From contig OZ025275.1 in assembly GCA_964019165.1 (NCBI GenBank), positions 248,001-312,000 on the forward strand: a stretch of 64,000 bases of DNA. The letters run 5' to 3'. The notes beneath the pieces are model-generated. The model saw only the letters and a list, made by a program, of their open reading frames with translations. It was not told the DNA's origin and ran no database searches. Made by a program: the position numbers and the translations under genes. Source of the stretch: Mastigias papua (Eukaryota > Cnidaria > Scyphozoa > Rhizostomeae > Mastigiidae). Below are positions 57,804 to 58,925 of the stretch, piece by piece (position 1 is the first letter of the stretch; each line of letters starts with the position of its first letter).

Positions 57804-58356
57804 CAGACACAGACACAGACACAGACACAGACACAGACACAGACACAGACACAGACACAGACACAGACACAGACACAGACACAGACACACACATGTGTGT
57901 GTGTGTGTGTGTGTGTGTGTGTGTGTGTGTGTGTGTGTGTGTGTGTGTGTGTGTGTGTGTGTGTGTGTGTGTGTGTGTGTGTGTGTGTGTGTGTGTACAT
58001 ATATATATATATATATATATATATATATATATATATATATATATATATATATATATATATATATATATATATATATATATATATATATATATATATATAT
58101 ATATATATATATATATATATATATATATATTTATATATATATATATATATATATATATATATATATATATTTATATATATATATATATATTAAAAGTTGA
58201 AACTGTTTCTTGAGGGTCTATATATATGTGTGTGTATATATATATATATATATATATATATATATATATATATATATATATATATATATATATATATATA
58301 TATATATATATATATATATATATATATATATATATATATATATATATATATATATA
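57804..58356. repeat. Compound microsatellite block
   Basis: (ACAGAC)n 57804-57889, (TG)n about 57893-57996, (TA)n 57999-58190, a 28-bp unique spacer, then a second TA/TG/TA tract 58219-58356 that runs into the hairpin element. Smaller tracts follow at 58598-58640, 58733-58767, 59040-59063 and 59335-59405. Confidence 0.97.
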
Positions 58357-58388
58357 CAGCTGAAGACAATTAAAGAAAAGACATGGTA

Positions 58389-58430
58389 TCTGTGACTCTG
58401 AGTTTCATGCTAGTGCATTCATCAGACAGA
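58389..58430 (-). ncRNA. Hammerhead ribozyme motif (left arm)
   Basis: Mirror image of the motif at 58452-58493, read on the minus strand, with identical core and stems. Predicted cleavage falls after the base at 58394. Confidence 0.75.
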
Positions 58431-58451
58431 CTCTATTCTATCAGAATAGAG

Positions 58452-58493
58452 TCTGTCTGATGAATGCACTAGCATGAAACTCAGAGTCACAGA
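58452..58493 (+). ncRNA. Hammerhead ribozyme motif (right arm)
   Basis: Order and pairing: stem I strand TCTGT (58452-58456), core CTGATGA (58457-58463), stem II ATGC/GCAT with loop ACTA (58464-58475), core GAAA (58476-58479), a 3-bp stem III (ACT/AGT around CAG), cleavage triplet GTC (58486-58488), and stem I strand ACAGA (58489-58493), fully complementary to TCTGT. All invariant hammerhead positions are kept. The short stem III is the form described for Penelope-like elements, which may work best as a dimer. Confidence 0.82.
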
Positions 58494-58925
58494 TACCATG
58501 TCTTTTCTTTAATTGTCTTCAGCTGTATACTTTGCTCTGTAGTGGTTTTGTACATTGAGCACTATCTCGTCAGTTAAGACTATCCACGGAGAAGATATAA
58601 ATATATATATATATGTATGTATGTATGTATGTATGTATGAGGATATAGACAGGCAAATGAACTAGTTCTCCTTTATGCTCAGTACCTCCATACATAGAGC
58701 ATTTTGTGTCAGAATAGACCTCTTACCTTAATATATATATATATATATATATATATATATATATATACATATATATTCATATACCCCCTTTGTGTGAGCA
58801 GTCCTCTCTCAACAGCAGGTCCAATGTACATTGTGATGGAGCTGTGATGGCTTCCCTGCACAAATAGGTTAAGAGAGGGGCGGTGTGAGCAAATGACCTA
58901 CCCTTGAGCAATGATTTGAAAGCGT

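Follow-up and report, generated by a model that had tools for sequence, protein, structure and literature searches.

The palindrome at 58353-58529 of the window (the whole 64,000-nt stretch of DNA analysed, part of a 346.8-Mb genome in 172 contigs) is probably a single insertion of a Penelope-like element (PLE) in which only the 5′ region of the RNA was copied, by target-primed reverse transcription (RT) on both strands. An inverted-repeat scan of the window showed two perfectly complementary arms of 87 nt each (58353-58439 and 58443-58529) with a 3-nt spacer between them. The preliminary description gave the correct coordinates and arm identity but took the palindrome as spacer-free, whereas ATC separates the arms; it also overlooked two things, the ~68-nt tail at 58530-58597, which is part of the insertion, and another palindrome ~0.5 kb away (59064-59343), which is of a different family. 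The features are:

58353..58439, minus strand: left inverted pLTR arm, tail-less, bordering on a TA microsatellite where the inner RT start site (TATA) lies
58388..58431, minus strand: type I hammerhead of the left arm (RF00163 Hammerhead_1, 28.2 bits), predicted cleavage after 58394
58440..58442, no strand: junction between the arms, ATC, 3 nt
58443..58529, plus strand: right pLTR arm, +1 at 58443 (AGAATAG), inner RT start after 58529
58451..58494, plus strand: type I hammerhead of the right arm (RF00163 Hammerhead_1, 28.2 bits), predicted cleavage after 58488 (arm position 46)
58530..58597, plus strand: PLE 'tail', CTTTGCTC...GGAGAAGATA, ~68 nt, stopping at the outer RT start site with TA-rich DNA beyond
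59085..59211, minus strand: left pLTR arm of the second palindrome (family B), with a tail at ~59064-59082
59215..59343, plus strand: right pLTR arm of the second palindrome (family B), tail-less, bearing a minimal motif that resembles a hammerhead, its core starting at 59258 and its predicted cut following 59291

The two arms carry one hammerhead each, on opposite strands. Stem I (gtctgt/acagat, 6 bp), the core CTGATGA, stem II (atgc/gcat), GAAA and the triplet GTC are intact, and stem III, as read by eye, consists of A-U, C-G and U-A pairs closing a 3-nt loop. A strict descriptor comprising the core and all three stems matched the window twice, at the two arms, and gave no match in 40 dinucleotide shuffles. 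This agrees with the earlier proposal of two real ribozymes, and the motif analysis placed the plus-strand cut at the same position, after 58488. The comparison with the Rfam type I model was less clear-cut: RF00163 matched both arms (E 2.9e-5 in a 201-base scan), but 28.2 bits is below the Rfam gathering score of 34. A whole-window Rfam scan at the gathering threshold detected no hammerhead and only three tRNA-like matches. What identifies a type I hammerhead here is the conserved core CUGANGA/GAAA/NUH together with the three stems, at an Rfam score below gathering. MicroRNA matches in the scan of the palindrome were discarded as hairpin artefacts, all of them being under their own gathering scores. 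Elsewhere in the window, two tRNA-like sequences (18692-18764 and 58926-58999) resemble each other and are perhaps SINE heads, and two inverted repeats (30532-30664 and 25737-26738) have no hammerhead core.

PLE pLTR hammerheads with a type I core and a short or missing stem III were reportedly described by Cervera and de la Pena in 2014 and by Lunse in 2017. In a set of 12 hammerheads of this and related elements of the genome, which is partly non-independent (two are from family A, that of the 87-nt arm, and three from one other family) and includes some first picked by a stem-requiring descriptor, pairs 1-4 of stem I were formed in all 12, each by three to five types of pair, pair 5 in nine and pair 6 in eight; stem II pairs were formed in 10 to 11 and stem III pairs 1-2 in 12 of 12. 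These pairs were counted by script because the MAFFT alignment had misplaced stems III and I. With a core-only regular expression that makes no demand on stems, the sense-strand core was found at the 3′ ends of eight of eight diverged relatives (L048-L055, with 48-66% protein identity to the PLE copy L021; L048-L050 are near-identical at the motif). Cores occurred on both strands in 27 of 37 listed inverted repeats (27 sources scanned), a count in which overlapping rows and several other core types are included. Other hammerhead cores on both strands were seen in inverted repeats of L016 (5799-7797), L021 (2178-4324), L022 (4347-4735), L023 (4677-4812), L028 (5204-6622) and L051 (645-857).

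The arm is the pLTR of a PLE whose putatively RT-bearing body (L021) and pLTR-ORF tandem (L045) exist elsewhere in the genome. A genome search with the arm, in which 40 of 143 candidates were scored, gave at least 58 matches at 37 sites, the window included; the other 36 are L009-L044. Both arms were present and both outer ends readable at 23 of the 37 sites, and in all 23 the arms stood head to head; at 14 sites a single arm lay within the stretch examined. The arm could be followed into RT/endonuclease-like frames in L015, L016 and L021, those joined to it in L015 and L021 containing YRDD; the L021 frame has 563 codons, and its C-terminal part was read as GIY-YIG-like. Homologues numbered 3815 among 7999 scored candidates, and many relatives bear a precomputed PF26215. 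YRDD and PF26215 are features that we take as signs of a PLE. A Pfam search of the protein recognised neither a reverse transcriptase nor an endonuclease, GIY-YIG was matched in one of 36 aligned sequences at an E value of 0.0057, below the cutoff, and a PDB profile search with the protein gave no match. In the genome, the L021 protein had at least 77 matches (77 of 724 candidates scored). In the one tandem copy examined, L045, the ORF end of a first copy and the ORF start of a second enclose the pLTR, and there the tail sequence of 58530-58597 continues into the 5′ region of an ORF. Marks of a PLE seen here are a tandem-derived pLTR with a nearby ORF start, in this one copy, together with an optional tail and inverted pLTRs. 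We also noticed that a 387-codon frame of L018 (4943-6103) contains a piece that matches the presumed RT of this PLE and continues into unrelated-looking sequence.

Spacers in the 23 pairs ranged from 0 to 2173 nt; five pairs had none, the other 18 spacers all differed in sequence, and the long ones contained the RT/endonuclease-like body. No two sister copies have a non-zero spacer in common, so the palindromes look like products of independent insertions and not like copies of a mobile unit; most insertions are within TA repeats. An assembly artefact is an unlikely source of the palindrome because similar ones, with differing spacers, occur at many sites. A palindromic MITE or retrozyme-like non-autonomous unit, moved as such by a PLE or by a transposase in trans, would suit the short size, the many copies, the TA flanks and the perfect inverted arms, and yet it is very improbable in view of these spacers, of ends made asymmetric by the tail and of longer members that grade into RT/endonuclease-like pieces. 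A DNA transposon or MITE was rejected since a constant interior and symmetric ends would be expected, against the variable spacers and one-sided tail seen here. So was a metazoan retrozyme, as short direct tandem repeats are missing and the arms are inverted wherever two were seen (23 of 37 sites). An unrelated hairpin repeat with ACGCGCTGTAGCAACT arms and a variable loop was observed at L084, L086, L087 and L089. With respect to the preliminary description, the involvement of a Penelope-like enzyme and a fold-back-like event were borne out, and PLE copies in the genome share the 87-bp arm. Its 'minimal element' was not: the arm belongs to the PLE itself as its pLTR, spacers vary among sister copies, and a minimal element acting in trans is not needed.

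The two outer ends of an insertion are as a rule not alike. In each pair one end terminates at CAGCTGTATA, the inner RT start, mostly beside TA repeats, and in family A the opposite end runs ~68 nt further to GGAGAAGATA, with TA-rich sequence beyond. Exactly one tail was present in 22 of the 23 family A pairs readable at both ends (from the 37 arm-selected sites; the short tail of L010 was counted as a tail), the exception being L016, with a tail on both ends; no pair was tail-less. The family B palindrome of the window (59064-59343) also has one tail and TA-rich flanks, with a CTGAAGA core and a GTT triplet. Its arm gave 588 first-look candidates in the genome, 40 of them scored, and the 13 loci considered yielded nine readable pairs, each with one tail of ~21-24 nt; L063 (only part of one arm), L064 (second piece diverged and in another order) and L065-L067 (one arm read) were left out. 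Taken together, 31 of 32 readable pairs of both families were one-tailed (8e-9 at p=0.5). The arm queries excluded the tail sequence, and therefore these two sets were not selected for it. Among 16 tail-selected loci, the partner was tail-less in all nine readable pairs. GAAGATA precedes the TA-rich sequence in 33 of 35 listed tail ends (L035 and L083 differ); the outer RT start is fixed in position. One family B copy, L061, lies in unique DNA and is flanked on either side by ATATTAGCTATA, of which 8 to 12 nt fall outside the element (the last four letters can be assigned to the element as well), a flank duplication such as a staggered break would give. The near-strict one-tail rule appears to be new in the literature searched, although it may have been reported elsewhere.

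These outer ends bear on a different origin of the second arm, in which a single cDNA, or an antisense transcript, folds back and primes itself, so that one arm is copied from the other. Self-priming on an antisense template is, in the portion of PMC3846280 available, the published view of rotifer Penelope palindromes, and it would suit arms that are mostly identical. However, copying of one cDNA should give equal ends, and the ends differ in 31 of 32 pairs. The unequal reach of the arms in L013, L014, L021 and L029 also fits two cDNAs better, although a looped snap-back could produce it too. As for the templates, private variants are common to both arms in L016, L021 and L073, which would fit one template or snap-back equally well, and L075 and L012 each have a single arm with variants known from other copies, a hint of two templates; the arm-specific stem I variants of L075 again fit two cDNAs better than snap-back. 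On balance, we regard snap-back as unlikely and favour two-strand target-primed reverse transcription.

If two cDNAs met at the 5′ end of the RNA, the inner ends would mark where the template ended. A query with the tail gave 77 candidate places, of which 40 were scored, and the tail-side inner end was read in all 40. Eighteen lay at +1 (within ~2), which we assume to be the RNA start, 12 lay 21 nt or more upstream of it, and six were at single positions (7, 14, 16, 39, 55 and 61). The remainder were at +47, the base after the predicted hammerhead cut, in L070, L071 and L080, and ambiguously at 44-47 in L083. Both arms begin at +47 in L071 and L080; in L070 one arm begins there and the other at 49. 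The probability of 3 of 10 ends falling at exactly position 47 of 84 was 1.9e-4 with L083 counted as a miss, for a set that is small, comprising three or four insertions, most template ends being elsewhere than at the cut. Because automatic end calls halt early at point mutations and small deletions, BLAST ends were used for such rows, for example L017, L026, L036, L037, L040, L041, L044, L075, L077 and L081. Exact palindrome-centre patterns with a gap of up to 30 were also searched genome-wide, in bins covering ends at ~1-16, ~16-31 and near 47. The pattern for ends near 47 matched three sites, namely L070 (where the left half of the match is filler), L071 and L080; that for ends at ~1-16 matched seven sites judged to be family A by the matched letters, plus one that was not. 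The pattern for ends at ~16-31 had six matches genome-wide, none of family A. For family B, a genome-wide centre pattern at its own predicted cut gave one match, which was not at the site; the CTGAAGA core and GTT triplet of this family may be weak.

The ends at +47 give a hint that the hammerhead cleaves itself in the animal, and, lying at the predicted cut of the sense strand, they would fit a sense RNA template, which snap-back does not readily provide. It is also quite possible, though less likely than not, that the twin-primed insertion is correctly read and the +47 ends arose from microhomology or from RT pausing at the hammerhead, not from ribozyme cleavage. ACAGA/TCTGT does belong to stem I, the sample is small, and family B was negative at its own cut. 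Pausing, however, is not an obvious way to end both cDNAs precisely at the scissile bond, which is where they end in L071 and L080, and the filler of L083, ACAGAT three times from +47, is what would be expected at an RNA end. As far as the literature searched goes, a cleavage footprint of this kind seems to be new, although it too may have been reported elsewhere.

Junction filler was compared with the local RNA 5′ end. Ten of 13 hand-chosen fillers had more 6-mers in common with it than shuffles did (P<0.02), those of L033, L037 and L071 showing no 6-mer excess over shuffles, and ATTCT runs were found near the +1 end at the junctions of L025, L039 and L044. We take as a lead that the filler may come from repeated copying of the RNA end in the manner of telomerase, with which PLE reverse transcriptases are said to have a common ancestor in the available part of PMC3846280.

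In the reading that we favour, the PLE endonuclease would break both target strands with a stagger, and each broken 3′ end would prime reverse transcription on sense PLE RNA. The two start sites would be divided between the strands, one using the inner and the other the outer; each cDNA would extend until the RNA gives out at its 5′ end, which is +1 in an intact template and +47 after hammerhead cleavage, and would often stutter at that point, and joining of the two cDNA ends would create head-to-head inverted pLTRs, with a whole ribozyme in each arm unless the RNA template had already been cut. Two-strand target-primed reverse transcription from two starts would account for the inverted arrangement of the arms, for there being one tail, for ends at +1 and at +47, and for both the filler and the L061 duplication. 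More tentatively, and with somewhat less than even confidence, we propose that in the animal PLE hammerheads cut their RNA, which is reverse transcribed in its cut form, that a single complex uses both adjacent starts once, one per DNA strand, and that copying at the 5′ end is reiterative and telomerase-like. If this is true, genomic scars record both PLE hammerhead cleavage in the animal and concerted two-strand insertion. Short palindromes would be readable end products: an inner end would show where the RNA template had its 5′ end, and an outer end which start site its strand had used. Both types of end could be scored in any PLE-rich genome, and two open questions would become counting exercises.

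PLEs themselves, as well as inverted pLTRs, tails and hammerheads in PLEs, are already known. In the portions available, inverted pLTRs with a tail optionally at one of them are in print (PMC3846280), and the tandem pLTR-ORF arrangement has been described for PLEs (PMC11167929, PMC3846280). Metazoan retrozymes (PMC7229834, as far as its available text goes) are likewise small, carry type I hammerheads and may owe their movement to PLEs, but they are short direct tandem repeats that make circRNA, whereas the pairs here are inverted. The type I PLE hammerheads of PMC7761336, from the part of that source at hand, share the type I core in pLTRs and a short or missing stem III; in family A stem III is 3 bp plus a loop, and here the motif was followed to template ends. 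The Poseidon element of Anolis (PAc, studied in vitro; PMC11167929, available sections) has a hammerhead at the start of the pLTR-ORF, and its protein cuts and extends both strands, starting at two adjacent internal RNA sites that explain the tail, as proposed here. Those sections differ from our results in that none of the PAc RNA reads ended at the hammerhead site and its strands showed no start-site difference, and in that the PAc starts lack homology to the target, whereas family A starts read ...ATA beside TA repeats. The Pen families of Adineta vaga (PMC3846280, accessible part) likewise have inverted pLTRs, a palindromic junction, a short TSD, AT-rich targets and an optional one-sided tail. 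Compared with what that part reports, the present genome has numerous double pLTRs that lack a body, a single tail in 31 of 32 readable pairs, and a hammerhead, with some ends matching the ribozyme cut.
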